Under the pieces are notes generated by a model. That model was not told the origin of the DNA, searched no databases, and was given only the letters and a program-made list of their open reading frames with translations. From Desulfatibacillum sp. (GTDB lineage Bacteria > Desulfobacterota > Desulfobacteria > Desulfobacterales > SpSt-501), in assembly GCA_020725555.1 (NCBI GenBank), contig DYEU01000023.1, forward strand, positions 62,001 to 126,000: a stretch of DNA of 64,000 bases. Reading direction: 5' to 3'. This document shows, one piece after another, positions 7,081-64,000 of this stretch. Numbering within the stretch: position 1 is the stretch's first letter; the number at the start of each line of letters is the position of its first letter. Both the position numbers and the translations under genes were made by a program.

Positions 7081-7517
7081 GGGTCCGACGGCGGCCCGGC
7101 GCAAGCGAGAGCCTTGCGCCGCTCGGCCTCAAGCCGCGCCGCGGTGACGCTCAGCACCCGCGCCAGCGGCGCATCGGCGCGCATGCCGGGGCAGACGGAG
7201 GCCATGGCCCGCCAGTTGCCCGGGTCGCGGAGGAGCCCTTCGATGAAGGGCCAGCGGCGGCACATGCGCGGCTTGACCGGGTGGATGCGGCAGATGCCGT
7301 CCCAGAAGACGCAGTAGCCGTCTTCCCGCTGGCCGAGGAGAAAGCCCTTGCCCGCGGGCAGGCAGTAGCGGGCGCGCACCTCGCCGGGGCTGCGGTTGAG
7401 GTGGCGGGCGATCGCGGCGATGTCGTCCTCGTCGACGGCGGTCCCGCCGTAGCCCTTGCAGCAGTCGCCGCAGCGCCGGCAGACGAAGAGATCGGGGGCT
7501 TCCTCATCCCAGGGCAC
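7077..7517 (-). CDS. YkgJ-family cysteine-cluster protein
   Basis: A 146-residue protein. The N-terminal cluster C13-x2-C16-x2-C19-C20 and later cysteines (GYCVFWDGICRIHPVKPRMC) match the YkgJ/CxxCxxCC family, which is predicted to bind zinc or an Fe-S cluster. No enzymatic role is established. It overlaps recR upstream by 14 nt and the kinase gene downstream by 4 nt, so it is probably translated as part of the dnaX operon. Confidence 0.85.
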   Translation of the reverse strand: MPWDEEAPDLFVCRRCGDCCKGYGGTAVDEDDIAAIARHLNRSPGEVRARYCLPAGKGFLLGQREDGYCVFWDGICRIHPVKPRMCRRWPFIEGLLRDPGNWRAMASVCPGMRADAPLARVLSVTAARLEAERRKALACAGPPSDP

Positions 7518-8106: not shown

Positions 8107-8108
8107 GG

Positions 8109-8420
8109 TCACATCATCCCCGGCAGCGAAACGCCGCCGGTCAGTTTGCCCATCTCCGCCGCGGCCATCTCCCGCGCGCGGCCGAGGGCGTCGTTCACCG
8201 CGGCGAGCACGAGATCCTGGAGCATCTCCACGTCCTGGGGGTCGACCACCTCGGGCTCGATGCGCAGCGCGAGGATTTCCTGGCGTCCGTTGGCGACGGC
8301 CCGGACCATGCCGCCGCCGGCGGTCCCCTCGACCGTGCGCGCCGCGAGCTCCTCCTGCAGCTGGATCATGCGCGCCTGGAGCTTCTGCGCTTCGCGGAGC
8401 ATCTGGCCCATCGATTTCAT
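8109..8420 (-). CDS. YbaB/EbfC family nucleoid-associated protein
   Basis: A 103-residue protein with the family N-terminal helix ([19 protein letters not shown]), central [16 protein letters not shown] and C-terminal [14 protein letters not shown]. YbaB dimers bind DNA like tweezers and compact the nucleoid. Start ATG 8420 overlaps the dnaX stop (ATGA), and its own stop overlaps recR. Confidence 0.93.
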
Positions 8421-10048: not shown

Positions 10049-10102
10049 CGACGTCAGGCGCGGATCGGCTCCGGAGGGGTGAACGGGGAGCGAAGCGGGA
10101 AG

Positions 10103-10196
10103 TGGCGGAGAGAGTGGGATTCGAACCCACGGTGCCGTTTTAAGCGGCACACACGATTTCCAGTCGTGTTCCTTCGGCCAGCTCGGACATCTCTCC
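10103..10196 (-). tRNA. tRNA-Ser(GGA)
   Basis: The minus strand folds as a class II tRNA. Acceptor GGAGAGA pairs with TCTCTCC, G discriminator, and encoded CCA at 10105-10103. The anticodon loop CTGGAAA gives anticodon GGA (codon UCC). A long variable arm (GTGCCGCTTAAAACGGCAC) and T arm GTGGGTTCGAATCCCAC are present. Serine identity follows from the anticodon and long variable arm. Confidence 0.96.
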
Positions 10197-10263
10197 GCGG
10201 ACCCATCGTCGACCAAGCCCCCCGCCCCGCCGCCGGTCCTCGGAGCGGGCCGCCGGCGGCGTG

Positions 10264-10355
<92 letters not shown>

Positions 10356-10391
10356 CCGCAACCGGCTGAGCAATGCATGAATCTTTGAAAA

Positions 10392-11165
10392 TTACCGGGT
10401 TTCGTGCTCGAAGTCAACCTCCGGGTCCCCGGCGAAACGGGGCTCGAGATCGAAAAAGGATTGCACCTCCGGGGTGTAGCGCCCGGGCGCCGCAAAGAGA
10501 AACAGCGGCGGCTCGACCCGCAGGCCGGGGCGGCCGCCGCGGATCCCCTCGACCAGCAAAAGCCGCGCCGCGTGGCGCGGGGTCCCGTGCACGCCGCGCA
10601 GGCGCTTGGGCTCCAGCCCCGCCGCGCGCATCCCGGAGAGCAGATCGGCCGCACGGCCGGCGTCGTAGACGAGGCTCACGCGCCCTCCGGGATCGAGCAG
10701 GCGGCGGGCCGCCTGGAGGACATCCTCGAGGACGACGCTGATTTCGTGGCGCGCAAGCGCCCGGCTGTCGTTGCCCGCGAGGCGTCCGCTGCCCCGGTGG
10801 CGGAAGGGCGGGTTGGAGACGACCCAGTCGAAGGCCCCGCCCAGGTCCCGGCGCTCGAGCCGGCGCAGGTCGCCGCAGACGACCTCGACCCGGGAGGAGA
10901 GGCCGTTGGCCGCGGCGTTTTCGCGCGCCAGGCGCGCGAGCTCTTCCTGGATCTCGACCGCCACCACGCTCGTCCCCGGGCGGCGGGCGGCGATGAGCAG
11001 GGCGACGATGCCGCAGCCGGCCCCGAGGTCGACGATGCGTGTCCCGGGCGCGGGACGGACCGCACCCGCCAGAATCACCGCGTCGATCGAGAAGCGGTAC
11101 CCCTGGCGGGGCTGGCTGATCCGCAGCCGGCCGCCGCAGAGGAGATCGCAGGTGGTTTGCGTCAT
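10392..11165 (-). CDS. tRNA1(Val) (adenine(37)-N6)-methyltransferase-like protein (TrmN6/YfiC)
   Basis: A 257-residue class I SAM-dependent methyltransferase. The N-terminal GYRFSIDAVILAGAV segment is typical of YfiC/TrmN6. The SAM-binding loop is VDLGAGCGIVALLIA, and the amino-methyltransferase motif is SNPPF. E. coli TrmN6 methylates A37 of tRNA-Val. Location beside tRNA genes is suggestive only. Its start overlaps the stop of dciA by 4 nt. Confidence 0.82.
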   Translation of the reverse strand: MTQTTCDLLCGGRLRISQPRQGYRFSIDAVILAGAVRPAPGTRIVDLGAGCGIVALLIAARRPGTSVVAVEIQEELARLARENAAANGLSSRVEVVCGDLRRLERRDLGGAFDWVVSNPPFRHRGSGRLAGNDSRALARHEISVVLEDVLQAARRLLDPGGRVSLVYDAGRAADLLSGMRAAGLEPKRLRGVHGTPRHAARLLLVEGIRGGRPGLRVEPPLFLFAAPGRYTPEVQSFFDLEPRFAGDPEVDFEHETR

Positions 11166-11485
11166 GTCCCGCAGGGGCCGATCCGCAGGATGATCTCGCG
11201 GATCGCGCGTTTCCCAAGGCAGCGGTTGACCGCCTCGATCAGCTCCGCGCGGCGCAGGTGGAGGTGGTGGAGCCAGCTCGAGCTCGAGACATGCACCACG
11301 AGCCGTGACCCGCGAAAGGCCGCGGGGCGGGCGTGGCGGGCGGTCTCGGCCCCGACCGCGGCCTCCCAGAGGCCCAAAAGCCTCACCGTGTCCTCCTCGC
11401 CGGAAGGCCGCAGGCGCCGGATTAGGCCGGGAAGGATCTCGCCCACCGCCTGCGCGCCGGCCGGCGGTTGTTTCCCAGGGTCCAT
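11162..11485 (-). CDS. DUF721/DciA family protein
   Basis: A 107-residue protein with the DUF721 pattern: basic helix, then W near the middle (LWEAAVG), HARPAAFRGSRLVVHVSSSSW, and a C-terminal RI-containing strand. DciA is the ancestral replicative helicase loader in bacteria lacking DnaC/DnaI, where it helps DnaB onto the origin. Start ATG 11485. It overlaps trmN6 downstream and diverges from hflK. Confidence 0.82.
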   Translation of the reverse strand: MDPGKQPPAGAQAVGEILPGLIRRLRPSGEEDTVRLLGLWEAAVGAETARHARPAAFRGSRLVVHVSSSSWLHHLHLRRAELIEAVNRCLGKRAIREIILRIGPCGT

Positions 11486-11555
11486 GGCATCCCGATTATG
11501 GCGCGGCGGGCAGGCTCCGTCAATCGGCGCCCTTGCGGCCGCGCTCCGATTTCGC

Positions 11556-11583
11556 TTGACTTGGGCCGGCTCCTACCTTATCA
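11556..11583 (+). promoter_or_regulatory. Promoter candidate for hflKC
   Basis: TTGACT (11556-11561) is followed after 16 bp by TTATCA (11578-11583). The -35 is good and the -10 weak. The first codon of hflK is at 11679, leaving a leader of about 90 nt. Confidence 0.35.
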
Positions 11584-11678
11584 GGAGGGATCCTCATTTC
11601 AGTCAGCATCGCACGGATCGTCTTCTTTCGCTACGCCCGCCGCCTGTCCGGTCACTTCCGGAGAAAAGGATTTGCGCC

Positions 11679-12713
11679 ATGAGTTGGGACTGGGAAAAAC
11701 TGAAGCAACAGCAGCAGGGCCCGCGCGGTGTTCCGCCGCAGATGAGCCAGGCGCTGAACCAGCTCAAGAAATTCCGCCTCCCCGGCGGGCCGACGGCCAT
11801 CCTGCTCCTCGTCCTCGCCGCCGCCGTCTTTTCCTCGTTCTACACCGTCAACCAGGATGAGGTCGGCGTCGTGCAGCGCTTCGGCCGCTACATCGAGACG
11901 ACCCAGCCGGGCCTGAATTTCAAGCTCCCCTTCGGCATCGACACGGTGACCAAGGTCAACGTGAAGCGGGTGCAGACCGAGGAGTTCGGCGGAGGCCCCG
12001 GCGAGGAGACCTTCCGGCCGCGGACGCGTCCCGGCGCCGAGCCGGCCAACGTCACCCTGATGCTCACGGGGGATCTGAACGTCGCCCTGGTCCCCTGGAT
12101 CGTGCAGTTCCGCGTCAAGGACCCCTACAACTACCTCTTCAAGGTCGCCAACGTCCGCCGGCTGCTGACCGACATGTCCGAGGCGGTGATGCGGCTTGTG
12201 GTCGGCGACCGCAGCATCAACGAGGTGATCAGCAAGCGCAGCGAAATCGCCAACGAGGCCCGCGACCTCCTCCAGCGTGAGCTCGACCAGGCCGAGACCG
12301 GCATCCACATCGTCACCATCGAGCTCAAGCGCACCAACGTGCCGCTTCCGGTACAGCCCTCGTTCAACGAGGTGAACCAGGCGACCCAGGAAAAGGAGCA
12401 GCTGATCTACCAGGCGAACGAGGAATACAACAAGGCGATCCCTGCGGCGCGCGGCTCGGCCGAACGCACCATCCGCGAGGCCGAAGGCTACGCCTTGAAC
12501 CGCGTCAACCGCGCCCAGGGCGATGTCGCCCGCTTCCGCCAGATCTACGAGGAATACCGCAAGGCCAAGGACGTGACCGAGCGCCGGCTCTACCTCGAGA
12601 AGATGCGGAGCGTGGTGCGGAACATGGGGCCGATTTACATCGTCGATCCGGATCAGAAAAGCGCGCTGCCGCTGCTCAACCTCATGCCGCCCATGCCGGG
12701 GAAGGAAAAATGA
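11679..12713 (+). CDS. hflK: FtsH protease regulator HflK (SPFH domain)
   Basis: A 344-residue membrane protein. The N-terminus is Gln/Pro-rich and cytoplasmic. One membrane helix lies near residues 44-63 (AILLLVLAAAVFSSF), then an SPFH/band-7 domain starts at VNQDEVGVVQRFGRY. A long Glu/Arg-rich helix follows. HflK and HflC form a periplasm-facing cage around FtsH and modulate its proteolysis. The ATG is preceded by AAAAGGA. It overlaps hflC by ATGA. A shorter N-terminus than E. coli HflK (which is Gly-rich) is normal in many phyla. Confidence 0.92.
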   Translation: MSWDWEKLKQQQQGPRGVPPQMSQALNQLKKFRLPGGPTAILLLVLAAAVFSSFYTVNQDEVGVVQRFGRYIETTQPGLNFKLPFGIDTVTKVNVKRVQTEEFGGGPGEETFRPRTRPGAEPANVTLMLTGDLNVALVPWIVQFRVKDPYNYLFKVANVRRLLTDMSEAVMRLVVGDRSINEVISKRSEIANEARDLLQRELDQAETGIHIVTIELKRTNVPLPVQPSFNEVNQATQEKEQLIYQANEEYNKAIPAARGSAERTIREAEGYALNRVNRAQGDVARFRQIYEEYRKAKDVTERRLYLEKMRSVVRNMGPIYIVDPDQKSALPLLNLMPPMPGKEK

Positions 12714-13657
12714 AACTCAAGTCCTCGCTGATCGTCGTCGTGCTGCTGGTCGCGGCCGTGGCCTGGGATGCCTTCTTCGTCGTCTCCGAAACCGAGCAGG
12801 TGGTCATCACCCAGTTCGGGCGGATCACGGGGGAGGCGATCACCGAACCGGGGCTCAAGGTGAAGCTGCCCTTCATCCAGAAGGTGCACGTCTTCAACAA
12901 GAACATCCTCGACTGGGACGGGGACCCGGGCCAGATCCCCACGCTGGACAAGACCTTCATCTGGGTGGACGCCTTCGCCCGCTGGCGCATCGTGGACCCG
13001 GTCAAATTCTTCCAGACGGTGAACAACCGCTTCAACGCCATCAACCGCTTGAACGACATCATCGACCCCGCGGTGCGCAACTTCATCACCTCGCACCGGC
13101 TGATCGACGCCGTGCGGCGCTCGAACCGGGAGCTCGACGTCTCCGAGGAAGGGCTCGAGGACCAGGAGAAAAAGCCCCAGTCGCTCTACCAGATCACGGT
13201 CGGCCGGGAAAAGATCACCCAGGGGATTCTCGAGGAGGCCCAACCCAAGCTCAACCAGTTCGGCATCGAGTTGGTGGACGTGAAGATCAAGAGCATCAAC
13301 TACGTGGAAGAGGTGCGCAAATCGGTCTACGACCGCATGATCGCCGAGCGCAAGCAGATCGCGGAGAAGTTCCGCTCCGAGGGGCGCGGCGAGGCCCAGA
13401 AGATCCTGGGGCAGAAAGACCGCGACCTGCAGCGCATCTCCTCGGAAGCCTACCGTATCGCCGAGGAGATCAAGGGCAAGGCCGACAGCGAGGCGACCCG
13501 AATCTACGCCGCCGTCTACGGCCAGGACCCGGAATTCTACAGCTTCCTGGAAACCCTCGAGCTCTACGCCGAGGTCCTCGACAAGCAGAGCTCGGCGATC
13601 CTGTCCACCCAGTCGGACCTGATGCGCCTGTTCAAGACCGGCCGCCCCGCGCGCTGA
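12710..13657 (+). CDS. hflC: FtsH protease regulator HflC (SPFH domain)
   Basis: A 315-residue partner of HflK. An N-terminal signal-anchor (residues 5-25) is followed by SETEQVVITQFGRITGEAI, the start of the SPFH domain. IKSINYVEEVRKSVYDRMIAER-type sequence and a C-terminal FYSFLETLELYAEVL segment are typical of HflC. The start is coupled to hflK. A bidirectional terminator follows directly. Confidence 0.93.
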   Translation: MKLKSSLIVVVLLVAAVAWDAFFVVSETEQVVITQFGRITGEAITEPGLKVKLPFIQKVHVFNKNILDWDGDPGQIPTLDKTFIWVDAFARWRIVDPVKFFQTVNNRFNAINRLNDIIDPAVRNFITSHRLIDAVRRSNRELDVSEEGLEDQEKKPQSLYQITVGREKITQGILEEAQPKLNQFGIELVDVKIKSINYVEEVRKSVYDRMIAERKQIAEKFRSEGRGEAQKILGQKDRDLQRISSEAYRIAEEIKGKADSEATRIYAAVYGQDPEFYSFLETLELYAEVLDKQSSAILSTQSDLMRLFKTGRPAR

Positions 13658-48014: not shown

Positions 48015-48518
48015 GACAGGGAGACCGCACGCGCCACGCGGCGGGAGATCCCCCTTGCGGGGAGAGCCGCTTTCCCTGCCCCGCACAAACCGGGCCTTGC
48101 GGGAAGCGGACCCTAAAAGGCGGTTCCCCGCCGCCTGGGACCCTCTCACGGGGCGGTGCGGCCGACCCCTGACCCGACAAGCCCCCGGGGCGCATTGACC
48201 CGGCGTGCGCGTCTTTTGCCCTTCCCTTCTATCTATCACGGAAATCAACCTGCCTCCGTGACCGCAGCGCAGCCGGCTGAACCCGGGGTTCTTCCTCACC
48301 CATCCTTCTTTGGCCTTTCGCAGACGATCGCCTCCCCGGTGCCTTTGCCGCCCCCCGCTTTTCCCCGCAGGGCCCGGGGGGCGATCCCTGTGGCCGCCGG
48401 GGGCTCAATTTCCAGTTGAAAGCCGCGGTCAAGGATGATAAGCGGGTTCTCTTTATCTCCATTGACCCGCTTTGCATCGGTCCGCAAAAGGAAATCCCAC
48501 CGCAGGGGGGTGTACGGC
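48015..48518 (+). other. Apparently non-coding gap before mmdA
   Basis: About 500 bp with no gene I can support: short open frames here have low-complexity Pro/Arg/Ala composition and no Shine-Dalgarno. The A/T-rich patch 48420-48475 just upstream of mmdA is the likeliest place for its promoter, but I could not find a -35/-10 pair that I trust. Confidence 0.4.
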
Positions 48519-50066
48519 ATGACCGCAGAGAAGATCCAGGAACTCACCGCCCGGCGCGGCGCGATCCTCGCCGGCGGCGGCGAGAAGGCCGTGGCCAAAC
48601 AGCACGAGTCGGGGAAACTCACCGCGCGCGAGCGGATCGGCCTCTTGCTCGACCCGGACAGCTTCGTCGAACTCGATGCCTTCGTCCGCCACCGCTGCAG
48701 CGAATTCGGGATGGAGAAGACCGAGATCCCGGCGGAGGGGGTCGTGACCGGCTACGGCACGATCGAGGGCCGCACGGTCTACGTCTATGCCCAGGATTTC
48801 ACAGTCATGGGCGGCTCTTTAGGCGAGATGCACGCCAAGAAAATCTGCAAGGTGCTCGATCTCGCGCTCAAGACCGGCGCGCCGGTCGTGGGCCTCAACG
48901 ACTCCGGCGGGGCCCGCATCCAGGAAGGGGTCGATGCGCTCTCCGGGTACGGGCAGATTTTCTTCCGCAACACGCGCGCCTCCGGGGTGATCCCCCAGAT
49001 CGCGGCGATCCTGGGGCCGAGCGCCGGGGGGGCGGTCTATTCGCCCGCGCTCATGGACTTCACCTTCATGGTCGACCGCACCAGCCAGATGTTCATCACC
49101 GGGCCCCAGGTGATCAAGGCCGTGACCGGCGAGGAGGTCTCGGCCGAGGATCTGGGCGGGGCCATGACCCACAACCGCACCAGCGGGGTCGCCCACTTCT
49201 TCGCCAAGGACGATCGCGTCTGCCTCGCCGAAATCCGGCGGCTGCTCGGGTACCTGCCCTCGAACAACCTCGAATCGCCGCCCCGCCTCGAGCCCACCGA
49301 CGACCCCGAGCGCCGCGACGAGACGATGAACGCGATCCTGCCGGCCTCGCCCAACCGCTCCTACGACATGCGCAAGGTCATCCGCGGGCTGGTCGATCAC
49401 GGGGAGTTCCTCGAAGTCCACGCGCACTACGCGGTCAACATCATCGTCTGCTTCGCGCGCCTGAACGGCCGCAGCATCGGCATCATCGCCAACCAGCCCG
49501 CCCATCTCGCGGGCTGCCTCGACATCAACGCCTCCGACAAGGCGGCGCGCTTCATCCGCACCTGCGACGCCTTCGGCATCCCGCTGTTGAACCTCGTGGA
49601 CGTCCCCGGCTTCCTCCCCGGCACCCACCAGGAATACGGCGGGATCATCCGCCACGGGGCGAAAATGCTCTACGCCTACTCCGAGGCGACGGTGCCCAAG
49701 GTGACCCTGATCCTGCGCAAGGCCTACGGGGGCGCCTACCTGGCGATGTGCAGCCGGGACCTGGGGGCCGACATCGTCTACGCCTGGCCAACGGCCGAAA
49801 TCGCCGTCATGGGGCCGGAGGGCGCAGCGAACATCATCTTCCGGCGCGAGATCGCCGCCGCGGCCGACCCGGAGGCGGCGCGCAACGAAAAGATCGCCGA
49901 GTACCGCGACCGCTTCGCCACCCCCTACATCGCCGCGGCCCGCGGCTACGTGGACGACGTCATCGAACCCGCCTCCTCGCGCCGCGCCCTCATCCGCGCC
50001 TTCGAGGCCCTGCAGGGAAAACGGGACGTGCTTCCGCCCAAGAAGCACGGCAACCTGCCGGTGTAG
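48519..50066 (+). CDS. mmdA: Acyl-CoA carboxylase/decarboxylase carboxyltransferase subunit (MmdA-like)
   Basis: A 515-residue carboxyltransferase of the propionyl-CoA carboxylase beta / methylmalonyl-CoA decarboxylase alpha family. The acyl-CoA site is GVVTGYGTIEGRTVYVYAQDF and LNDSGGARIQEGVDAL. The carboxybiotin site is LVDVPGFLPGTHQEYGGIIRHGAKMLYA (quoted only in outline: GFLPG and GIIRHGAK), followed by RKAYGGAYLAM. The start at ATG 48519 gives MTAEKIQELTARRG. OadG-like and beta-subunit genes downstream point to the sodium-pumping methylmalonyl-CoA decarboxylase rather than an ATP-driven carboxylase. Confidence 0.88.
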   Translation: MTAEKIQELTARRGAILAGGGEKAVAKQHESGKLTARERIGLLLDPDSFVELDAFVRHRCSEFGMEKTEIPAEGVVTGYGTIEGRTVYVYAQDFTVMGGSLGEMHAKKICKVLDLALKTGAPVVGLNDSGGARIQEGVDALSGYGQIFFRNTRASGVIPQIAAILGPSAGGAVYSPALMDFTFMVDRTSQMFITGPQVIKAVTGEEVSAEDLGGAMTHNRTSGVAHFFAKDDRVCLAEIRRLLGYLPSNNLESPPRLEPTDDPERRDETMNAILPASPNRSYDMRKVIRGLVDHGEFLEVHAHYAVNIIVCFARLNGRSIGIIANQPAHLAGCLDINASDKAARFIRTCDAFGIPLLNLVDVPGFLPGTHQEYGGIIRHGAKMLYAYSEATVPKVTLILRKAYGGAYLAMCSRDLGADIVYAWPTAEIAVMGPEGAANIIFRREIAAAADPEAARNEKIAEYRDRFATPYIAAARGYVDDVIEPASSRRALIRAFEALQGKRDVLPPKKHGNLPV

Positions 50067-50081
50067 GGGAAAGGCCCGCCG

Positions 50082-50534
50082 ATGGACACCTGGGAAAAGC
50101 TCGATCTCGGACTCGTGATGACGGTTCTCGGCATGGGGATCGTGTTTCTGGTCCTCATCTTTCTCACCCAGCTGATCGGCCTTTTCGAACGCTTCTTCGG
50201 GGCCCGGAAAGGCCCGGCGGCCGGGGAACAAAAGGCGCTCCCCCCGGAGACGGCGCGGGAACGCGCGGCTCCCGCACCGAGGCCTTCGCCGGCGCCGGCC
50301 GCCGCCCCCGCCGCACCCGCCGCCCCGCAGCAGGCCCCCCCGGCCCCGCAGCCGGCGGCCGCCGCCGCACCCGCGGTGCGGCCGGCCGTCGTCGCCGCGG
50401 TGATGGCCGCGGTTTCGGCCTACCTCCAGTCCGAGGCCCTGGCCCTTGCGCCGCCCGTGCGGCGGCTCCCCGACGACCTTTCCTTCTGGGGCCGCGCCGC
50501 CCGCCTGGAGCAGATGATGTCGCGCCGGCTCTGA
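50082..50534 (+). CDS. OadG-like small membrane subunit of a sodium-pump decarboxylase
   Basis: A 150-residue protein. One N-terminal membrane helix (residues 10-35, LVMTVLGMGIVFLVLIFLTQ) is typical of OadG/MmdD. About 60 residues of Pro/Ala linker follow, then a short helical domain (PAVVAAVMAAVSAYLQSE). It lacks the biotin-attachment motif (M-K-M). It assembles the decarboxylase on the membrane. It lies between mmdA and the beta subunit. Confidence 0.8.
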   Translation: MDTWEKLDLGLVMTVLGMGIVFLVLIFLTQLIGLFERFFGARKGPAAGEQKALPPETARERAAPAPRPSPAPAAAPAAPAAPQQAPPAPQPAAAAAPAVRPAVVAAVMAAVSAYLQSEALALAPPVRRLPDDLSFWGRAARLEQMMSRRL

Positions 50535-50599
50535 GCCGGGGGCCGAAAACGCCCACCCTGCCTCCCGCCGCACGCAACGCTGGAAGAGGAGACCTCGGC

Positions 50600-51811
50600 A
50601 TGTCGATCGGGCAGTCGATCCTCAAGTTCCTGGAGACGATGGGCTTTGCCGCCATGACCTGGCAGGAGGGGGTCATGATCGGCGTCGCCTGCGTCCTCAT
50701 CTATCTCGCCCTCAAGAAAGGCTTCGAGCCGCTTCTTCTTCTGCCGATCGGCTTCGGGGTGCTTCTCGGGAACCTCCCGCTCGCCGGCCTCATGGCCCCC
50801 CCGGTCTACGAGACGGTGATCGACCCGCGCACGGGCCAGGCGGTCCAGGAGATGAAGGAGGTGGGGGGCCTGATCTACTACATCTACCAGGGGGTCAAGC
50901 TGGGGATCTACCCGCCGCTCATTTTTCTCGGGGTGGGCGCGATGACCGATTTCGGCCCGCTCATCGCCAACCCCCGCAGCCTCCTCCTCGGCGCGGCGGC
51001 GCAGTTCGGGATCTTCACCACCTTCCTGGGGGCGCTCCTGCTCGATTTCCTGCCGGGCATCGCCTTCAGCCCCCAGGAGGCGGCCTCGATCGGCATCATC
51101 GGCGGGGCGGACGGCCCGACGGCGATCTACCTGACCGCCCGGCTCGCCCCGCATCTCCTGGGCCCCGTCGCCGTCGCGGCCTATTCCTACATGGCGCTCG
51201 TCCCGCTCATCCAGCCGCCGATCATGAGGCTGCTCACCACGAAAAAAGAGCGCGAGGTCGTGATGGAGGAGCTGCGCGAGGTGTCGCGCACGGAGCGGAT
51301 CGTCTTCCCTCTGGTCGTGACCGCCGTCGTCTCCCTCATCCTGCCCGCGGCCGCACCGCTCGTCGGCATGCTCATGCTGGGGAATCTCCTGCGGGAGGCC
51401 GTCTCCATGCAGCCGATCATGAACCGCCTGCTCAAGACCGCGCAGAACGAGCTCATCAACATCGTGACCATCCTGCTCGGCGTCTCGGTCGGCGCCACCG
51501 CCAGCGGGCCGCTCTTCCTCAACCCGAAGACGCTCGGGATCATCCTGCTCGGCGTTTTCGCCTTCGCCGTCGGCACGGCGGGCGGGGTGCTGCTCGGGAA
51601 GGTCATGTACCGCACCTCGGGCGGCAAGGTGAACCCGCTGATCGGCTCGGCGGGCGTTTCGGCCGTGCCGATGGCCGCGCGGGTTTCCCAGACCGTGGGC
51701 CAGCAGTACAACCCCTCGAACTTCCTGCTCATGCACGCGATGGGGCCGAACGTGGCGGGCGTCATCGGCTCCGCCGTGGCCGCGGGGGTTCTGCTCGCCA
51801 TGCTGGGCTGA
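50600..51811 (+). CDS. mmdB: Sodium ion-translocating decarboxylase subunit beta
   Basis: A 403-residue membrane protein with about ten helices. The conserved IGADGPT-type helix is seen as IIGGADGPTAIYLT, which holds the Asp that carries sodium. The C-terminal GVSAVPMAARVSQ and the NFLLMHAMGPNVAGVIGSA segment are the second conserved block. It couples decarboxylation of the carboxybiotin carrier to Na+ export. Start ATG 50600 after GGAAGAGGAG. Confidence 0.93.
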   Translation: MSIGQSILKFLETMGFAAMTWQEGVMIGVACVLIYLALKKGFEPLLLLPIGFGVLLGNLPLAGLMAPPVYETVIDPRTGQAVQEMKEVGGLIYYIYQGVKLGIYPPLIFLGVGAMTDFGPLIANPRSLLLGAAAQFGIFTTFLGALLLDFLPGIAFSPQEAASIGIIGGADGPTAIYLTARLAPHLLGPVAVAAYSYMALVPLIQPPIMRLLTTKKEREVVMEELREVSRTERIVFPLVVTAVVSLILPAAAPLVGMLMLGNLLREAVSMQPIMNRLLKTAQNELINIVTILLGVSVGATASGPLFLNPKTLGIILLGVFAFAVGTAGGVLLGKVMYRTSGGKVNPLIGSAGVSAVPMAARVSQTVGQQYNPSNFLLMHAMGPNVAGVIGSAVAAGVLLAMLG

Positions 51812-55485: not shown

Positions 55486-55549
55486 AAGGGTTTCAGGCCC
55501 GGATGAAAGACACCCCCAACCCCCAGCGCAACACGTCAGGAGGTACGGC

Positions 55550-56515
55550 ATGAAGCGGATGACCCAGCGGTTGGTTTTCTTTCTGATCGTCGGCGTGACC
55601 TTCTCGCTCGCCCTCGGGGGCTACGCCGCCGCTCAGGACAAGTACCCCTCGAAGCCGATCACCTATCTCGTCACCTTCAACCCCGGCGGGCAGTCCGACC
55701 GCGAGGCCAGACGGCAGCAGCCGCTGCTCGAGAAGATTCTCGGCCAGAAAATCCTCGTCGACTACAAGGTCGGCGGCGGCGGGGCCCTGGGCTGGAGCGA
55801 GCTTGTGCGCTCCAAGCCCGACGGCTACCTGATCTGCGGCATCAACATCCCGCACATCATCCTGCAGCCCATGCAGCAGGAGACCGGCTACAAGACCGAG
55901 CAGATCGTCCCTGTCGCCCTCTTCCAGCGCACCCCTCTCGCCCTCGCCGTGTTGAAAGACAGCCCCTACAAAAATCTCAAGGAACTGGTCGAGGCGGCGA
56001 AGGCCAAGCCCGGGGAGATCAGCATCGGCGGCTCCGGCACCTTCTCCGGACACCACATCGCGACGCTCCGGCTGCAAAAGCTCGCCGGGGTGAAGTTCAA
56101 TTACGTCCCCTTCACCGGTGCCGCCCCGCAGATGACGGCCTTCCTGGGCGGCCACGTGAACGCCATCTTCGGCAACTCCGACGACCTGGTCAAGCATGCC
56201 GACACGATCCGCGTTCTCGGGACAGCGGATGAGACGCGCTTTTTCGGGTTCCCCGACGCCCCGACCTTCAAGGAAGGGGGCTACGATCTCGTCGAGGCGA
56301 TCGACCGCGGGATCGCCGTGCCGCCGAACACGCCCGAGCCCGTTCTCAAAAAGCTCGAGGCGGCCTTCCTGCAGATCGCCAAGGACCCCGAGATCCAGGG
56401 GCAGATGAAAAAGGAGGGCTTCGTGCCGCTCGCCATGGGCCATGCCGAGAGCAAGGCCCACATCGCGAAGATGACGGAGATCTATCGCGAGATCGCCAAG
56501 GACATCAAGAAATAG
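55550..56515 (+). CDS. tctC: Tripartite tricarboxylate transporter substrate-binding protein (TctC family)
   Basis: A 321-residue periplasmic binding protein. The signal peptide ends about residue 28 (GGYAAAQ). The mature start YPSKPITYLVTFNPGGQSD contains the family ligand loop. GGGGALGWSELVRSKPDGYL and GSGTFSGHHIATLRLQKLAG are further family segments. It captures a carboxylate and delivers it to TctAB. GGAGG 7 nt before the ATG. It is the first gene of the TTT operon, under a sigma-54 promoter. Confidence 0.92.
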   Translation: MKRMTQRLVFFLIVGVTFSLALGGYAAAQDKYPSKPITYLVTFNPGGQSDREARRQQPLLEKILGQKILVDYKVGGGGALGWSELVRSKPDGYLICGINIPHIILQPMQQETGYKTEQIVPVALFQRTPLALAVLKDSPYKNLKELVEAAKAKPGEISIGGSGTFSGHHIATLRLQKLAGVKFNYVPFTGAAPQMTAFLGGHVNAIFGNSDDLVKHADTIRVLGTADETRFFGFPDAPTFKEGGYDLVEAIDRGIAVPPNTPEPVLKKLEAAFLQIAKDPEIQGQMKKEGFVPLAMGHAESKAHIAKMTEIYREIAKDIKK

Positions 56516-56537: not shown

Positions 56538-57011
56538 GTGGTCGCGAACCGACGTTCCGCAGACATCGCCTCGGGCGTGTTCCTCGCGCTCCTGGGCGTG
56601 GTGGTCTTTGCGGCATCCACGACGATCGACGAGGGTGCGGGGGGGCAGCTCCACCCCCGCACCTTTCCCATGATCCTCGGGGCGATGCTCGTGCTGGGGG
56701 GCGGGGCGCTCGCCGTGCGCACGGCGCTTTCGCGCCCCGGCAGCGCCAAAGCCGTGCCCTGGCCGGACCGCAACGGCGCACGGCTTTTGTTCATCGCCCT
56801 GGCGGGCCTGTGCGGCTACGTGCTGCTCTCCCAGTTGCTGGGTTTTCTGGTAAGCTCTTTTCTCTTCGTCCCCTGGTTCATCCGCACCTTCGGCCGTTAC
56901 GGGCATTTCCTCGCCTGGTCGTGCGCGGTGGGGGTCGTCCTCTTTTTGTATGTCGTGTTCATCCGGCTGCTGCAGCTCAGCCTCCCGACCGGCCCATTTC
57001 CCTTTTTCTGA
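56538..57011 (+). CDS. tctB: Tripartite tricarboxylate transporter small membrane subunit (TctB family)
   Basis: A 157-residue membrane protein with four hydrophobic segments (about 11-28, 42-60, 83-100, 122-148). GTG start at 56538, with AAAGGA upstream. QLHPRTFPMILGAMLVLGG is a typical TctB feature. It partners TctA. Confidence 0.88.
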   Translation: MVANRRSADIASGVFLALLGVVVFAASTTIDEGAGGQLHPRTFPMILGAMLVLGGGALAVRTALSRPGSAKAVPWPDRNGARLLFIALAGLCGYVLLSQLLGFLVSSFLFVPWFIRTFGRYGHFLAWSCAVGVVLFLYVVFIRLLQLSLPTGPFPFF

Positions 57012-57062: not shown

Positions 57063-58571
57063 ATGGACGCCTGGTCTTTTCTGCTCGACGGCTTCGCTGC
57101 GGCGATCCGTCCCTACAATCTCCTCTTCGCTCTGATCGGCTGCATCGCGGGAACCCTGGTCGGCGTGCTTCCCGGCCTGGGGCCGACGGCGGCCATCGCC
57201 ATGCTCCTGCCGCTGACGACCCTGCTCGACCCGGCGCCCGCGATCATCATGATGGCGGCGATCTACTACGGGGCGATGTACGGCGGCTCGACCACCTCGA
57301 TCCTGGTGAACATCCCGGGGGAGGCTTCCTCGGTGCCGACGGCGATGGAGGGGTACCAGTTGACCCTCCAGGGCCGAGGCGGGCCGGCGCTCGGCATCTC
57401 GGCCATCGCCAGTTTCGTGGCGGGGACCCTCGGCGTCGTCGGCCTCACCTTCTTCGCCCCCACCCTCGCCCGCGCCGCCCTGGCCTTCGGCCCGCCCGAG
57501 TACTTCGCCCTCACGCTCCTCGGGATCAGCCTGGTGATCAGCCTCTCGGGCCGCTCGATCGGCAAGGGGCTGCTCTCTGCCCTTCTCGGGCTGCTGACGG
57601 CGATGATCGGGCTCGACCCCCTTTCGGGTGTGGCGCGCCTCACGTTCGGATCCTACCAGCTCATGGCCGGGATCGATTTCGTCCCCATCATCATGGGCCT
57701 CTTCGCCGTGAGCGAAATCCTGACCAATGTCGAGGCGAAGGCCGACCTGCTGTTGCGGGAGAAGAAAATCGAGTGGCTGCCGAGCTGGCGGGATATCAAG
57801 GAAACCTGGGGGGCGACGATCCGCTCGGGGTTTCTCGGTTTCTTCTTCGGGCTCATCCCCGGTTGCAGCCCGGCCGTGACCTCGTTCATGGCCTACGACA
57901 TGGAAAAACGCTTCTCCAAGCACCCCGAGCGCTTCGGCAAGGGCGCGATGGACGCCGTGGCGGCGGTGGAGGGCTCGAACAACGCGACCGCCAGCGGCGG
58001 GTTCGTCCCCCTGTTCGCCTTCGGGATCCCCTCGGGGCCGGCGCTCGCCGTGCTTCTCGGCGGCTTCATCATGTTCGGCCTGCAGCCCGGCCCGCGCTTG
58101 ATGCAGGAGCAGCCCCAGCTCCTCTGGACGATCATCGCCAGCATGTACATCGGCAACGTGATCCTCCTGATCCTCAACCTCCCGCTCGTCGGCCTCTGGG
58201 CGCGCATGGCCCTCGTCCCCTTTCCCATCCTCGGCTCGATGATCACGGTCTTCACCCTGATCGGCGCCTACAGCCTGCGGTACTCCTTCTTCGACCTCTG
58301 GATGGCCCTCCTCTTCGGCGGGGTCGGCTACCTCATGCGCAAGCTCGAATTCCCCGTCGCCCCCATGGTCCTCGCCGTCGTGCTGGCGAGCATGATGGAG
58401 ACCTCCTTCATGCAGTCGATCACGATGTCCCGGGGGTCGCTCGTGATCTTCTTCACCCGGCCGATTTCGGCGGTCTTCATGGCGCTCACGCTGCTTTCCG
58501 TCGTGACCGGGATCCTGCTGCTCCGCAAAGCGCGAAGCAAAAACATCGAGCTGGAGGAAAGCGACGCCTGA
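57063..58571 (+). CDS. tctA: Tripartite tricarboxylate transporter large membrane subunit (TctA family)
   Basis: A 502-residue permease of about twelve helices. LVGVLPGLGPTAAIAMLLPL and VNIPGEASSVPTAMEGYQL are the conserved TctA blocks, repeated in the second half as GFFFGLIPGCSPAVTSFMAY. It imports the carboxylate with a cation gradient. Convergent with the sigma-54 activator gene, which starts beyond it. Confidence 0.94.
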   Translation: MDAWSFLLDGFAAAIRPYNLLFALIGCIAGTLVGVLPGLGPTAAIAMLLPLTTLLDPAPAIIMMAAIYYGAMYGGSTTSILVNIPGEASSVPTAMEGYQLTLQGRGGPALGISAIASFVAGTLGVVGLTFFAPTLARAALAFGPPEYFALTLLGISLVISLSGRSIGKGLLSALLGLLTAMIGLDPLSGVARLTFGSYQLMAGIDFVPIIMGLFAVSEILTNVEAKADLLLREKKIEWLPSWRDIKETWGATIRSGFLGFFFGLIPGCSPAVTSFMAYDMEKRFSKHPERFGKGAMDAVAAVEGSNNATASGGFVPLFAFGIPSGPALAVLLGGFIMFGLQPGPRLMQEQPQLLWTIIASMYIGNVILLILNLPLVGLWARMALVPFPILGSMITVFTLIGAYSLRYSFFDLWMALLFGGVGYLMRKLEFPVAPMVLAVVLASMMETSFMQSITMSRGSLVIFFTRPISAVFMALTLLSVVTGILLLRKARSKNIELEESDA

Positions 58572-58595: not shown

Positions 58596-60152
58596 TCAGG
58601 GAAAGGCCTTTCCCAGGTAGTCTTCCGGGGTGATCCGCAGTTTGCGGATGCGGTACTGGAGGGTCGAGCGGGGGAGCCCGAGCAGGCGCGCCGCACCCTT
58701 CTCCCCGCCCAAGACCCCGCGGGTCCGGGCGAGCGCGCGCAGGATGTGCTCGCGCTCGGCGTCGCGCAGGCGGACGACGGGCTCGGCCGGCTGCCGGCGC
58801 AGGCCGGGCTGGGAGGCCTCGAGCAGCTGCGCGATCTCCTCGGCCCGGATGCGCTCGCCCGCCCGCAGGATCACCAGACGCTTGACGAGGTTCTTGAGCT
58901 CGCGCACGTTTCCCGGCCAGTCGTAGGCGATCAGCCGCTCCATGGCCCGCGGGGAGTAGACCGGCTCCGGCCGGTTCATGCGCCGCGCCTGGATGCGGGT
59001 CAGCTCCTTGATCAAGAGGCCGATGTCCTCCCGCCGTTCGCGCAAGGGGGGGACGTGGATCGAGACGATGTTCAGGCGGTAGTAGAGGTCTTCGCGGAAG
59101 CTGCCGGCGCGGACGCAGGCGCGCAGGTCCTTGTTCGTCGCCGCGATCACGCGGCAGTCGATCTGGATCGGCCGGCTCTCGCCGACGCGCTCGAACTGCC
59201 CGTCCTGCAGGATGTGGAGCAGCTTCGCCTGCAGGCCGATCGGCAGCTCGGCGATCTCGTCGAGAAAGATCGTCCCGCCGTGGGCGAGCTCGAAGCGGCC
59301 GAGGCGCCGCTCGTGGGCGCCGGTGAACGCCCCCTTGGCGTGGCCGAAGAGCTCGCTTTCGAAAATCGAGGAGGCGAGCGCGGGGCAGTTGGTCTTCACG
59401 AAGAGGTGGTGGCGCCGCGAACTGATGTTGTGGATGCAGCGGGCGAGATAGTCCTTCCCCGTCCCGGTCTCGCCGGTGATCAGGACCGTCGCGTCGGTGT
59501 CCGCGGCCTGCCGGATCGTCTGCAGAATCGCCTCCATCGCCGCCGAGGCGTGGAAAAACTCCTCCTGGGAGTAGTCCTCGGAGTTCTGCAGCAGGTATTC
59601 CTTCTCCCGCTCGAGGCTGCGGTTCAACCGCTCGAGCTCCGTGTAGGAGAGCATGTTGTCGACGGCGATCGCTACCTGGCGGCTGACCTCGGTCAGAAAC
59701 CCCGTGAGCTCGGAGACGTCCTCGGGGGGCTCGCGGAAGGAGAAATGGATGGAGCCCAGGATGCGGTTGCGCACGAGCATCGGGAAGGCCATCGTGGCCG
59801 TGAGCCCGGCGTTCACCATGGCGCCGATGGAGGAGAGGTCGCGGTAGCGCCGCAGGTCGTCGATGACCGTCGGCTGCCGGGACTGGATCACCATGCGCGC
59901 GATTGCGCCGTCGGCAAGCGGCCGGCTCGGCCGCATCAGCACCCCTCCGGGCTGGATGCCGTCGGCGGCGGCGAAATAGCTGATCGACTGCGTCCGGGGG
60001 TCATAGAGGTTGATCGCCAGGCGGTCGTAGCGGATGTGCCGGCGCAACTCCGCGGCGAGCGCCTGGAAAAGATCTTCGCGGTTGGTCCGGGTGATGACGG
60101 CGTTGTTGATCTCGAGCAGAATCTTGTAGCGGGTCTCGGCGTTCCAGCGCAT
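58596..60152 (-). CDS. Sigma-54-dependent activator with GAF sensor domain
   Basis: A 518-residue bacterial enhancer-binding protein. Domains: GAF (about 25-165), coiled linker (172-190), AAA+ (about 200-430) with Walker A GETGTGKD (227-234), the sigma-54 contact loop GAFTGA (274-279) and FLDEIAEL (296-303), and a Fis-type HTH at the C-terminus (GAARLLGLPRSTLQYRIRKL). The start is placed at ATG 60152. A TTG start 22 codons upstream is possible but the extra part is Pro/Arg-rich. It lies between the transporter and the larA-suyAB genes, both with sigma-54 promoters, and is the obvious candidate to activate them. Confidence 0.93.
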   Translation of the reverse strand: MRWNAETRYKILLEINNAVITRTNREDLFQALAAELRRHIRYDRLAINLYDPRTQSISYFAAADGIQPGGVLMRPSRPLADGAIARMVIQSRQPTVIDDLRRYRDLSSIGAMVNAGLTATMAFPMLVRNRILGSIHFSFREPPEDVSELTGFLTEVSRQVAIAVDNMLSYTELERLNRSLEREKEYLLQNSEDYSQEEFFHASAAMEAILQTIRQAADTDATVLITGETGTGKDYLARCIHNISSRRHHLFVKTNCPALASSIFESELFGHAKGAFTGAHERRLGRFELAHGGTIFLDEIAELPIGLQAKLLHILQDGQFERVGESRPIQIDCRVIAATNKDLRACVRAGSFREDLYYRLNIVSIHVPPLRERREDIGLLIKELTRIQARRMNRPEPVYSPRAMERLIAYDWPGNVRELKNLVKRLVILRAGERIRAEEIAQLLEASQPGLRRQPAEPVVRLRDAEREHILRALARTRGVLGGEKGAARLLGLPRSTLQYRIRKLRITPEDYLGKAFP

Positions 60153-60203
60153 CGGACGGCGTGCCCCCGGCGGATCGAATGGCTTTCTCCCGTTACCCGC
60201 AGT

Positions 60204-60273
60204 CTGCCGAAAGATCAAGAACTTTTTTCGGCACTATGACCATATTTCGGCAGAGTGTTCCTGTCTGCCGGCG
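60204..60273. promoter_or_regulatory. Repeated TGCCGAAA/TTTCGGCA half-sites upstream of larA (putative activator sites)
   Basis: CTGCCGAAA (60204-60212) faces TTTCGGCA (60226-60233), an 8-bp perfect inverted repeat. A second facing pair is TTTCGGCAG (60245-60253) and CTGCCGgcg (60265-60273). The block lies 52 to 121 bp upstream of the larA -24 element, the usual range for an enhancer-binding protein. It is also just outside the start of the activator gene, so autoregulation is possible. Confidence 0.6.
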
Positions 60274-60324: not shown

Positions 60325-60340
60325 TGGCCTGCGTTTTGCT
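60325..60340 (+). promoter_or_regulatory. Sigma-54 (-24/-12) promoter of larA-suyAB
   Basis: TGGCCT-GCGTT-TTGCT has the essential GG and GC with correct spacing; the AC of the -24 box is CT. The expected start near 60351 gives a leader of 16 nt with GGAGGG before the GTG of the larA homologue. Confidence 0.72.
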
Positions 60341-60366: not shown

Positions 60367-61632
60367 GTGGACGTCCAGCTGAAATACGGATCCGGCAAGA
60401 TCACGATTTCCATCCCCCCGCGGGCCGAGGTGACGCTCCTGGAACCCGCGCGGGTGCCGCCGCTCGCCGACCTCGAGGCCTCCCTCGCCCAGGCGCTCGA
60501 CCGACCCCGGGGCTGCCCATCCCTGGACGAGCTGCTCCGCTCCCGCAGGCCGCGCACGATCGCCGTGGTCGTGCCGGATGAAACCCGGCCGGCGCCGCTG
60601 AGAGAGATCCTGCCCCCCCTGGTCCGCCGTCTCGAGCAAGGGCTCGGCCCGCGGGCCGAGGGGGGCCTCACGGTCTTCGTCGGCGGCGGGCTCCACCCCC
60701 CCGCAGACGCCCAGGCGCTCGCGCGGATCCTGCCCGCCGAGGTCCTGGCCCGCTTTCCGGTCATCGCCCACGACGCCCGCCGGGCGCCCTTCCGCGACTA
60801 CGGCACAACCCGCCGCGGGACCCCGGTGCGCATCCATGAGGCCTTCGCCGCTGCGGAGCTCAAGATCGTGATCGGGCAGGTGGACCCCCACCAGTTCGTG
60901 GGGTTCACCGGCGGCGCCAAAGGGGTCGTGATCGGGCTCGGGTCCCCCGAGACCATCGAGAAAAACCACAGCCTGATGGCCGAACCCCACGCCTGGGTGG
61001 GGCTGCTCGAGGAAAACCCCGTGCGGCAGGACCTCGATGAGGCCGGCCGCAGGATCGGCATCGATTTCGCGGTGAACTTCGTCCTCGACGCCGACCGCCG
61101 CGCGGTCGCCCTCGAGGCCGGGCTCCCCGAGGAGGTCCTCCGACGGCTCGCCGGCGTCTGCGCCCGCGTCTACGGGGTCGGCCTCCGCGAGAAATTCGAC
61201 ATCGTCGTCGCCTCCTGCGGCGGCTACCCCAAGGACATCTGCCTCTACCAGGCGCAGAAAGGCCTGAACCTCGCCTCCCAGGCGCTCAAGCCGGGGGGGC
61301 ACATCCTGCTGCTCGCCGCCTCGCCCCAGGGGGTGGGCGACGACATCTACTTCGATTACGTCTCGCAGTTCACCTCGCCCGAGGAGGTGATCCGCGATTT
61401 CCAGGCCGGCGGCTTCCGCATGGGGGCGCACAAGGCCTACCTGTTCGGCAGAACGCTCGTCAACTACGATGTCGCCGTCTGCTCGGAGCTCGACCCGGGC
61501 ATCCTGCGCACCTGCCACCTGCGGGCGGCGGACCCGACCCGCGTGCTCGCGGAGTGGGTCGAGGCCCTGCCCGGCACCCCGCGGGTGGCGATCATCCCCA
61601 ACGCCAACACCACCTACTTTTACCCGGCGTGA
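60367..61632 (+). CDS. LarA-family nickel-pincer 2-hydroxyacid racemase homologue
   Basis: A 421-residue protein. The start is GTG 60367 with GGAGGG upstream. Residues known to bind or act with the NPN (nickel-pincer nucleotide) cofactor in Lactobacillus LarA are conserved in place: D71 and R74 (PDETRP), H110 (GLH), H175 and the covalent-anchor lysine K185 (PHQFVGFTGGAKG), H201 (EKNH) and the YQAQKG segment near 295-300. This implies a true NPN enzyme. LarA relatives racemise or epimerise lactate and other 2-hydroxyacids. No larB, larC or larE is in the window. Its substrate is probably that of the neighbouring lyase. Confidence 0.88.
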   Translation: MDVQLKYGSGKITISIPPRAEVTLLEPARVPPLADLEASLAQALDRPRGCPSLDELLRSRRPRTIAVVVPDETRPAPLREILPPLVRRLEQGLGPRAEGGLTVFVGGGLHPPADAQALARILPAEVLARFPVIAHDARRAPFRDYGTTRRGTPVRIHEAFAAAELKIVIGQVDPHQFVGFTGGAKGVVIGLGSPETIEKNHSLMAEPHAWVGLLEENPVRQDLDEAGRRIGIDFAVNFVLDADRRAVALEAGLPEEVLRRLAGVCARVYGVGLREKFDIVVASCGGYPKDICLYQAQKGLNLASQALKPGGHILLLAASPQGVGDDIYFDYVSQFTSPEEVIRDFQAGGFRMGAHKAYLFGRTLVNYDVAVCSELDPGILRTCHLRAADPTRVLAEWVEALPGTPRVAIIPNANTTYFYPA

Positions 61633-61801: not shown

Positions 61802-62080
61802 ATGATCCATTTCCTGGTCCACGAGGAAGCCGACAACGTCGGCGTGGCCACCGTCGACATCAAGGCGGGCGAGACGGCCACGGGGCTGTACATGGACAGC
61901 CAGAAGAAAATCAAGGTGAAGGCCCAGCAGGACATCCCCCTGGGGCACAAGATCGCGCTCGCCAAACTCAAGGTGAACGACAGCGTGATCAAGTACGGGC
62001 ATGACATCGGACGCGTGGTGGCCGACATCAAGGTGGGCGAACACGTGCACATTCACAATCTGAAGACGAGGAGGTGGTAA
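61802..62080 (+). CDS. suyA: SAF-domain small lyase subunit, SuyA-like
   Basis: A 92-residue protein with one SAF domain: [20 protein letters not shown], then [20 protein letters not shown] and [14 protein letters not shown]. It corresponds to the N-terminal domain of altronate dehydratase (UxaA) made as a separate subunit, as in (2R)-sulfolactate sulfo-lyase SuyA. AAGGAGG precedes the ATG. It ends 2 nt before the large subunit. The split form alone does not exclude an altronate- or galactarate-type dehydratase. Confidence 0.75.
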
Positions 62081-62082
62081 CC

Positions 62083-63255
62083 ATGGCCAAAACGAAAAAC
62101 CCCAAGGTCTTCGCCTACCGCCGCGAGAACGGCCGCGTCGGCATCCGCAACCACGTGATCATCCTGCCCCTCGACGACTTGAGCAACGCCGCCTGCGAGA
62201 AGGTGGCCTTCAACGTCAAGGGCTGCAAGGCCATCCCGCACGCCTACGGCCGGCTGCAGTTCGGAAAGGACCTTGAGCTCTTCTTCCGCACGATCATCGG
62301 CACCGGCTCCAACCCCAACGTGGCCGCGGTGGTGGTGATCGGCATCGAGCCCGAGTGGACCCAGCGCGTCGTGGACGGGATCGCCAAGACCGGGAAACCC
62401 GTCGCGGGCTTCAGCATCGAGCGCCACGGCGAGTTCAAGACGGTCGAGATGGCGAGCTGGAAGGCCAAGGAATACGTCCACTGGGCGAGCGAGCTGCGCC
62501 GCGAGCCGGTCGACCTGAAGGACATCTGGGTGAGCGTGAAATGCGGCGAAAGCGACACGACGAGCGGGCTGGCCTCCAACCCGACCGTCGGCAACGCCCT
62601 CGAGAAGCTCGTCGCCATGGGCGGCACCTGCTCCTTCGGCGAAACAAGCGAGATCACCGGCGCGGAGATGGTCTGCAAGGAGCGCGCGATCAACGCCAAG
62701 GTCGGCGAGCAGTTCATGGCCGTCTTCAACGCCTACCAGAAGATGATCGAGGCCAACAAGACCGATGACCTCTCCGGCTCCCAGCCGACCAAGGGCAACA
62801 TCCGCGGTGGGCTGACGACCATCGAGGAGAAGGCCTTCGGCAACCTGCAGAAGATCGGAAAGAAGATCCGATACGTCGGCGTGCTCGACAAGGCCGAGTC
62901 CCCGACCAAGCCGGGCCTGTGGTACATGGACACCTCGAGCGCCGCGGCCGAGGCCGTGACCCTCTGGGCGGCGGCGGGCTTCGTCGCCCATTTCTTCCCC
63001 ACCGGCCAGGGCAACATCATCGGCAACCCGATCGAGCCCGTGATCAAGCTCACCGCCAACCCCCTCACCGCCAAGACCATGGCCGAGCACATCGACTACG
63101 ACTGCTCGGCGATCCTGAGAGGCGAAATGACGCTCGACGAGTCGGGCGACAACCTGATCGAGATGCTGATCCGCACCTGCAACGGCAGGCTCACGGCCCA
63201 GGAAGTCCTCGGCCACGAGGAGTTCGTGCTGACCAAGCTCTACGAGAGCGCCTGA
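62083..63255 (+). CDS. suyB: UxaA-family large lyase subunit, probably (2R)-sulfolactate sulfo-lyase SuyB
   Basis: A 390-residue protein starting [60 protein letters not shown] and [20 protein letters not shown] are the blocks of the UxaA large domain, which binds Fe(II). The segment [17 protein letters not shown], where sugar-acid dehydratases usually have a P-T-V-x-C-[SA]-N-like sequence, agrees with my recollection of SuyB. SuyAB cleaves (R)-3-sulfolactate to pyruvate and sulfite. The assignment is by resemblance and context, and a hydroxyacid dehydratase remains possible. GGAGG 7 nt before ATG 62083. Confidence 0.7.
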
Positions 63256-63355: not shown

Positions 63356-64000
63356 ATGAAGATCGGATTCATCGGCGTCGGCCAGATGGGCGGCGGGCTC
63401 GCCCGCAACCTCATCCGCGCCGGCAGGACCGTCTGGGTGTACGACCTCAACGCCGAGGCGGTGAAGAAGACCCTCGCCGCCGGCTCGACCGGGCACGCCG
63501 CCCGGGGGCCGGCCGAGCTGGCGGACGCGGAGGTTCTCTTCACCAGCCTGCCGCTCCCCCGCCATCTCGAGGAGGTGATGCTCGGGCCGGAGGGCCTGCT
63601 CGGCCGCATGAAGGCGGGCAGCGTCTACATCGACGTGAGCACGATCGACCCCGGGACGGCGCGCAGGCTCGAGGCTGCGGCCGGGGAGCGGGGAATCGGC
63701 TTTCTCGCCTGCCCGCTCGGGAAAACCCCGGCGCACGCCGAAAAGGCCGAGGAGCCGATTTTCGCCGGCGGGGACAAGGCCCTCTTCGAGAAAATGCGGC
63801 CGCTGCTGGAGATCATCGGCAAACCCGTCTATTACCTGGGCGGGGTCGACGCCTCCTGCGCCCTCAAGCTGATCAGCAACCTGATCGGCATGACCAACCT
63901 CGCGGTCCTCGCCGAGGGGATCCGCATCGGCGAAAAGGCCGGGATCGAAACCCGCTTTCTGCTCGAGCTGCTGAGCGACACGGGCGCCCGGAGTTTTCAA
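63356..64000 (+). CDS. Beta-hydroxyacid dehydrogenase family protein (cut by window edge)
   Basis: The first 215 residues of a 6-phosphogluconate/3-hydroxyisobutyrate dehydrogenase-type enzyme, running off the right edge. The NAD(P) site is GFIGVGQMGGGLARNLIRAG (residues 4-23). The catalytic lysine region is ALKLISNLIG near 178. The usual substrate motif DAPVSGG is replaced by ACPLGKTPA, so the substrate may differ from that of typical members. Relatives include sulfolactaldehyde reductase (YihU), 3-hydroxyisobutyrate dehydrogenase and tartronate semialdehyde reductase. AAGGAGGAG precedes the ATG. It follows suyB by 100 bp. Confidence 0.85.
   Translation, partial: MKIGFIGVGQMGGGLARNLIRAGRTVWVYDLNAEAVKKTLAAGSTGHAARGPAELADAEVLFTSLPLPRHLEEVMLGPEGLLGRMKAGSVYIDVSTIDPGTARRLEAAAGERGIGFLACPLGKTPAHAEKAEEPIFAGGDKALFEKMRPLLEIIGKPVYYLGGVDASCALKLISNLIGMTNLAVLAEGIRIGEKAGIETRFLLELLSDTGARSFQ

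Follow-up and report, generated by a model that had tools for sequence, protein, structure and literature searches.

A LarAH5-family protein encoded beside the sulfolactate lyase SuyAB is a probable NPN-dependent 3-sulfolactate racemase

The gene at positions 60367 to 61632 (+ strand) of the window, the whole 64-kb stretch of Desulfatibacillum sp. DNA analysed here, encodes a LarA homologue of the LarAH5 family and is followed by suyA and suyB, which encode a sulfolactate sulfo-lyase. The genomic context, rather than chemistry, leads us to predict with good confidence that the physiological substrate of this protein is 3-sulfolactate. An NPN-dependent 3-sulfolactate racemase is likely because SuyAB is encoded next door, because this synteny is conserved, because a promoter element is shared and because slcC and comC are found in the place of the LarAH5 gene in a relative.

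The open reading frame is open and complete, starts with GTG and encodes 421 aa. Both LarA domains are present (Pfam Lar_N, E=2.3e-46; LarA_C, E=2.3e-13) and the NCBIfam model NF052595, 'nickel-dependent malate racemase, LarAH5 family', matches the protein with 540 bits (E=3e-162; curated cut-off 462 bits), outscoring the other LarA models by far. The best solved relative is Mar2 (E=3e-66). The residues D71, R74, H110, H175, K185 and H201, and likewise Q295 and K298, align with their equivalents in Mar2 (6D6Z) and in the lactate racemase 2YJG. All eight NPN-binding and catalytic positions of LarA (D72, R75, H108, H174, K184, H200, Q295 and K298) are filled, and the eight residues are invariant or nearly so across LarAH5. 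The original prediction had claimed an intact LarA homologue with a complete NPN site; Pfam, NCBIfam and the residue alignment agree with this, and the first six residues are found at exactly the numbers it gave. The AlphaFold2 model has a pLDDT of 90.5, and when it was compared with the PDB using Foldseek all 19 of the 19 matches at E<=0.001 were LarA-family structures, with TM values of 0.8-0.9. The assignment of the protein to the LarA homologues is far beyond chance. A sulfite adduct with the LarA cofactor is named in the titles of matched structures, and sulfite is a product of the pathway proposed below, which tells somewhat against the proposal.

The genes for cofactor synthesis were expected elsewhere in the genome, and their complete absence had been named as a finding that would refute the prediction. 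All three are present outside the window: larE is on the window's own contig, approximately 22 kb before the window, larC is on contig C33 and larB is on contig C26, and each product scores above its family cut-off. The complete site, together with larBCE in the genome, supports the prediction that the LarAH5 protein uses NPN. There are two further LarA homologues in this genome (G000), at C4:18016-19260 and C20:69912-71177 (L016 and L015). The C20 protein is over the LarAH10 cut-off and the C4 protein reaches no curated cut-off; both have other substrate-site residues, and there is no suyAB nearby. The three LarA homologues could thus all depend on LarBCE for their cofactor.

The lyase that had been noted beside the LarA homologue is real. 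It consists of SuyA, the small subunit of sulfolactate sulfo-lyase (61802 to 62080, + strand), which has a SAF domain (Pfam), and SuyB, the catalytic subunit of (R)-3-sulfolactate sulfo-lyase (62083 to 63255, + strand). The window SuyB is 66-67% identical to Cupriavidus pinatubonensis proteins adjoining hpsN and hpsO and, to the same degree, to Paracoccus proteins, some of which adjoin a sulfate exporter; other Paracoccus SuyB genes lie with TTT (tripartite tricarboxylate transporter) genes, a sulfate exporter gene and genes for a hydroxyacid dehydrogenase and an Ldh-family oxidoreductase. These close relatives of the window SuyB are linked to hps or slcC-comC genes. Rhodococcus matches follow at 62%, and the remaining UxaA-family proteins come next at 39%. 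A maximum-likelihood tree places the window SuyB within a 100/100 clade with the Paracoccus and Cupriavidus sequences. The SuyA proteins of relatives are 57-60% identical to that of C. pinatubonensis and 73-93% identical among window-type loci, and in the window the separate gene for this SAF-domain protein lies directly before suyB. An altronate or galactarate dehydratase is ruled out by the tree and by the identity gap (66-67% versus 39%). Judged by sequence, then, the lyase next to the window LarAH5 is a bona fide SuyAB. SuyAB converts sulfolactate to pyruvate and sulfite, as shown with the recombinant enzyme of Desulfovibrio DF1 (PMC6278857), and it is specific for (R)-sulfolactate (PMC9594981, PMC10507020).

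The linkage between LarAH5 and suyAB is conserved. We counted 28 distinct LarAH5 loci including that of the window, using a GTDB contig scan (18 loci; the scan returned Desulfobacterota and a few other MAGs, and no Bacillota) and genome searches of relatives, the phylum and the class. In three the contig ends at LarAH5, leaving 25 informative loci. Counting species and not independent events, suyA and/or suyB lie no more than about 12 kb from LarAH5 in 21 of the 25 (one of these shows suyA only before the contig ends) and suyA is the very next gene in 17 of the 25. In one genome (G129) there is a suyAB-hpsN-hpsO cluster with LarAH5 approximately 11 kb further on. The neighbourhoods of 10 other LarA homologues in this phylum, some of them short, contain no suyAB, and the suyAB-linked proteins cluster apart from other LarA homologues in the LarA tree. 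In a sample of 395 genomes of the phylum, again counted as species, SuyB is encoded in 18 genomes and in six of the nine genomes with LarAH5 (P=2.8e-7; P=4e-6 without the window's own genome), where G487 was counted as LarAH5 though its contig-truncated match (457 bits) is just under the cut-off. All LarA homologues encoded on the plasmids searched are distant, with identities of no more than 34%. On one of them, the Sporomusa termitida plasmid pSPTER (L178, 4338 to 7164), the gene for a distant LarA-domain protein adjoins a pair of UxaA genes distinct from suyAB (35%). TTT genes and a gene of the mandelate racemase family are also there, and this is another pairing of a LarA protein with a lyase.

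SlcC and ComC form the known system for isomerizing (S)- to (R)-sulfolactate (PMC10507020, PMC12421959). This pair is known from Chromohalobacter salexigens, Taurinivorans muris and Paracoccus. LarAH5 is proposed to work like it in supplying (R)-sulfolactate to SuyAB, and the two systems share the operon slot and the predicted sigma-54 control. SlcC and ComC are unrelated to LarAH5, however, and are two NAD(P)-dependent enzymes acting via sulfopyruvate, as against one nickel enzyme with no net redox change. In one relative (G387) slcC-comC-suyA-suyB comes after the orthologous sigma-54 regulator, in the position that larAH5-suyA-suyB has in the window. In two others (G424 and G249) SlcC and ComC are likewise encoded next to suyAB, and LarAH5 is absent. 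Among 15 genomes tested, SlcC orthologues (59-61%) were found in these three only, all of them free of LarAH5, and no match above 44% was found in the LarAH5 genomes. Neither SlcC nor a ComC-family protein was found in the window's genome, which is 100% complete by the given estimate. A ComC homologue coexists with LarAH5 in two loci (L061 and L063), and in a third (L052, G002) a protein weakly related to ComC (31%) is encoded about 8 kb upstream. In seven of the SuyB genomes in the phylum sample, neither LarAH5 nor SlcC/ComC is encoded near suyAB. Taken together, the gene content suggests that LarAH5 takes the place of SlcC and ComC, although the exclusion is imperfect (L061, L063 and L052).

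The other genes of the region fit into the same arrangement. Upstream of larAH5 there is a divergent gene for a GAF-type sigma-54 activator (58596 to 60218, - strand), which from its Pfam domains and conserved position is the probable operon regulator. It is conserved beside LarAH5 in most loci and is also present beside suyAB without LarAH5. Before it are the genes for the TTT subunits (Pfam, all + strand): TctC, the solute-binding subunit (55547 to 56515), TctB, the small membrane subunit (56538 to 57011), and TctA, the large subunit (57063 to 58571). LarAH5-suyAB loci repeatedly contain TTT genes. On the downstream side, suyB is followed by a 3-hydroxyisobutyrate-dehydrogenase-family gene of the DhpA group (63356 to 64000, + strand, cut by the window end and running on to 64216; Pfam, NCBIfam) and the TRAP genes dctPQM. 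DhpA of Desulfovibrio DF1, which belongs to the same family, oxidizes DHPS (PMC6278857). The suyAB operons of Desulfovibrio DF1, C. pinatubonensis and Paracoccus similarly combine SuyA and SuyB with TTT or TRAP transporters or with DHPS dehydrogenases (HIBADH family or Hps). The window operon differs from them in having a LarA homologue as a member; we found no such description, and no paper linking LarA-type enzymes to sulfolactate, in the open-licence papers searched.

A sigma-54 (-24/-12) promoter-like element, TGGCCTGCGTTTTGCT, is located at 60325 to 60340 (+ strand), before larAH5. It is the only match in the 64-kb window, but 18 of 100 shuffles gave a match too. A comparable element precedes LarAH5 in 20 of the 21 loci scanned, the exception (L058) also being without the regulator, and a score as high is reached by approximately 1.3% of 330-bp stretches taken at random from the window. 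In G277 the search before LarAH5 gave no such element. The element also precedes slcC in G387 and suyA in G424, G473, G275, G189 and G129. There is no terminator-like site between larAH5 and suyA; the number of such sites in the region equals the chance expectation. Further upstream in the window, at 48435 to 51811, a carboxyltransferase gene, an OadG-like gene and an OadB/GcdB-like gene lie in a row, and from their translations, judged by eye, they probably encode a sodium-pumping biotin-dependent decarboxylase.

We propose that larAH5 is the first gene of a sigma-54-controlled operon, followed by suyA, suyB and the 3-hydroxyisobutyrate-dehydrogenase-like and TRAP genes, and that (S)-3-sulfolactate would be imported or made from DHPS. 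In LarAH5 it would be oxidized transiently at C2, with transfer of a hydride to the NPN cofactor; H110 and H175 would act as acid and base, and re-reduction from the opposite face would give (R)-3-sulfolactate. SuyAB would then release pyruvate and sulfite, the latter to be respired by Dsr; the window's genome has dsrA and with it the means to respire sulfite. LarAH5 would thus do in one step what the SlcC and ComC pair does in other bacteria. The family, the residues, the cofactor genes, the identity of SuyAB, the synteny, the exchange in G387 and the lack of SlcC and ComC here can all be read from the sequence. The substrate, the (S) to (R) direction and the sigma-54 control are inferred, and the mechanism is the one described for LarA, in which hydride transfer on NPN is proton-coupled.

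The family name favours a different substrate. Mar1 of Desulfitobacterium hafniense, the only LarAH5 enzyme to have been assayed, racemizes malate (PMC7583248), as do the related Mar2 and LarAH62, and malate racemase is the NCBIfam equivalog name of the window protein. Mar1, which we know from its published description, belongs to the same curated family (NF052595) and has the same cofactor and catalytic residues, the H-K motif and the group-5 Gln that follows the catalytic His. The window protein has G-A-H-K on helix 14 (H355 and K356) and R220; H355, K356 and R220 are common to Mar2 (LarAH6; PDB 6D6Z and 7S91), so the residues indicate no more than a LarA site whose substrate carries a second negative group. 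Mar2 also has the same fold and catalytic residues, but it is approximately 31-32% identical by fold alignment, belongs to another curated group and differs after the catalytic His, which is followed by Y-K in Mar2 and by Q-F in LarAH5. Q176-F177, directly after H175, is specific to LarAH5 in the alignment and provides candidate pocket residues. Q176 is invariant in 26 LarAH5 proteins and may correspond to the Gln of group 5, which has Gln or His where group 6 has Phe (PMC7583248). A pocket fitted only for lactate had been named as an argument against the original prediction; the residues follow the malate-type pattern (H-K, helix 14) and not that of lactate. Lactate, 2-hydroxyglutarate and gluconate racemases were rejected, since Q-F after H175 and the helix-14 H-K do not fit the published patterns of those groups and the LarAH5 model scores best. 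Pocket residues alone, as aligned here, do not discriminate between malate and sulfolactate. Carboxylates are common substrates of TTT transporters, and suyAB could adjoin a malate racemase through shared transport or regulation of dicarboxylate-like acids. The operon points to sulfolactate, however: no malate-metabolism gene was seen in it, suyAB is conserved there across families, and slcC-comC replace LarAH5 in G387. The KM of Mar1 for L-malate is 55 mM in comparison with 0.38 mM for Mar2 (Table 2 of PMC7583248, where the kcat/KM listed for Mar1 is inconsistent with the separate kcat and KM values), and its authors considered that malate may not be the native substrate (PMC7583248). We therefore consider malate an unlikely physiological substrate.

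Four informative LarAH5 loci have no suyAB (L058, L062, G277 and G206). In L058 (8255 to 11918) and L062 (9962 to 12284) class II aldolase genes adjoin LarAH5 instead, and LarA homologues can be promiscuous, so that another sulfonated or anionic 2-hydroxyacid, such as a sugar-derived acid, might be the substrate, or sulfolactate one of several. This we regard as quite improbable, as suyA and suyB, with a known substrate, come next in most loci, whereas the aldolase loci are a minority and L058 has neither the regulator nor the promoter element. A related aldolase gene is present upstream in L055, which has suyAB. A sulfoquinovose locus was rejected for L058, where the best matches of the GH31 and kinase genes are alpha-xylosidase and xylulokinase, both below cut-off. 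It is very improbable that the window protein is non-catalytic or independent of NPN: some LarAH groups have lost catalytic residues (PMC7583248), but here all eight residues and larBCE are present. Racemization of 3-sulfolactate thus remains the preferred reading. Of the sulfonated or dicarboxylic substrate originally suggested from the neighbours, the sulfonated option is strongly supported by the SuyAB that follows, the conserved pairing and the slcC-comC exchange in a relative. The wider claim of a 2-hydroxyacid racemase with a new substrate narrows to 3-sulfolactate, and its family proved to be already named (LarAH5, 'malate racemase').

Two other loci found in these searches have a different arrangement. 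A locus of G277 (L094, approximately 2223 to 13317), a genome in which the phylum search found no SuyB, has LarAH5 followed directly by a homologue of ComA, by family a phosphosulfolactate synthase, together with TTT genes and no SuyAB; this is a further link between LarAH5 and sulfonates. Sulfite-reductase-domain and CbiA-like genes lie beside LarAH5. The sulfite-reductase-domain genes are divergent, as is a second ComA gene (6389 to 7234, opposite strand), whose product is 60% identical to the first. ComA may possibly run in reverse here as a desulfonating step. In G128 (L164, 7865 to 9142) a LarA homologue that is only distantly related, and outside LarAH5 by score and tree, is encoded directly before suyAB, and it has G-D-H-K at the anion-binding site where LarAH5 has G-A-H-K. 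Here a LarA enzyme may have been recruited to sulfolactate for a second time.

Also in favour of sulfolactate, the host species of Mar1, D. hafniense, carries candidate suyAB genes (PMC6278857), and sulfolactate is reported to serve it as an electron acceptor (PMC12890257). There is about an even chance that all LarAH5 proteins, Mar1 included, are 3-sulfolactate racemases named for a weak side activity and that members of the LarA superfamily became part of sulfonate respiration on two or more occasions, G128 being the second case.

Sulfoquinovose, an organosulfur compound of high abundance, gives rise to sulfolactate and DHPS, and sulfite respirers that break these two down make H2S. If the prediction is correct, it would provide a native substrate for an enzyme group whose discoverers left this open, and it would correct the database name 'malate racemase', which is now spreading through genome annotation. 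A one-step nickel enzyme would join organosulfonate respiration, in which the racemization of sulfolactate has so far been credited only to two dehydrogenases, and both mirror-image forms of 3-sulfolactate would be usable by sulfate-reducing bacteria.
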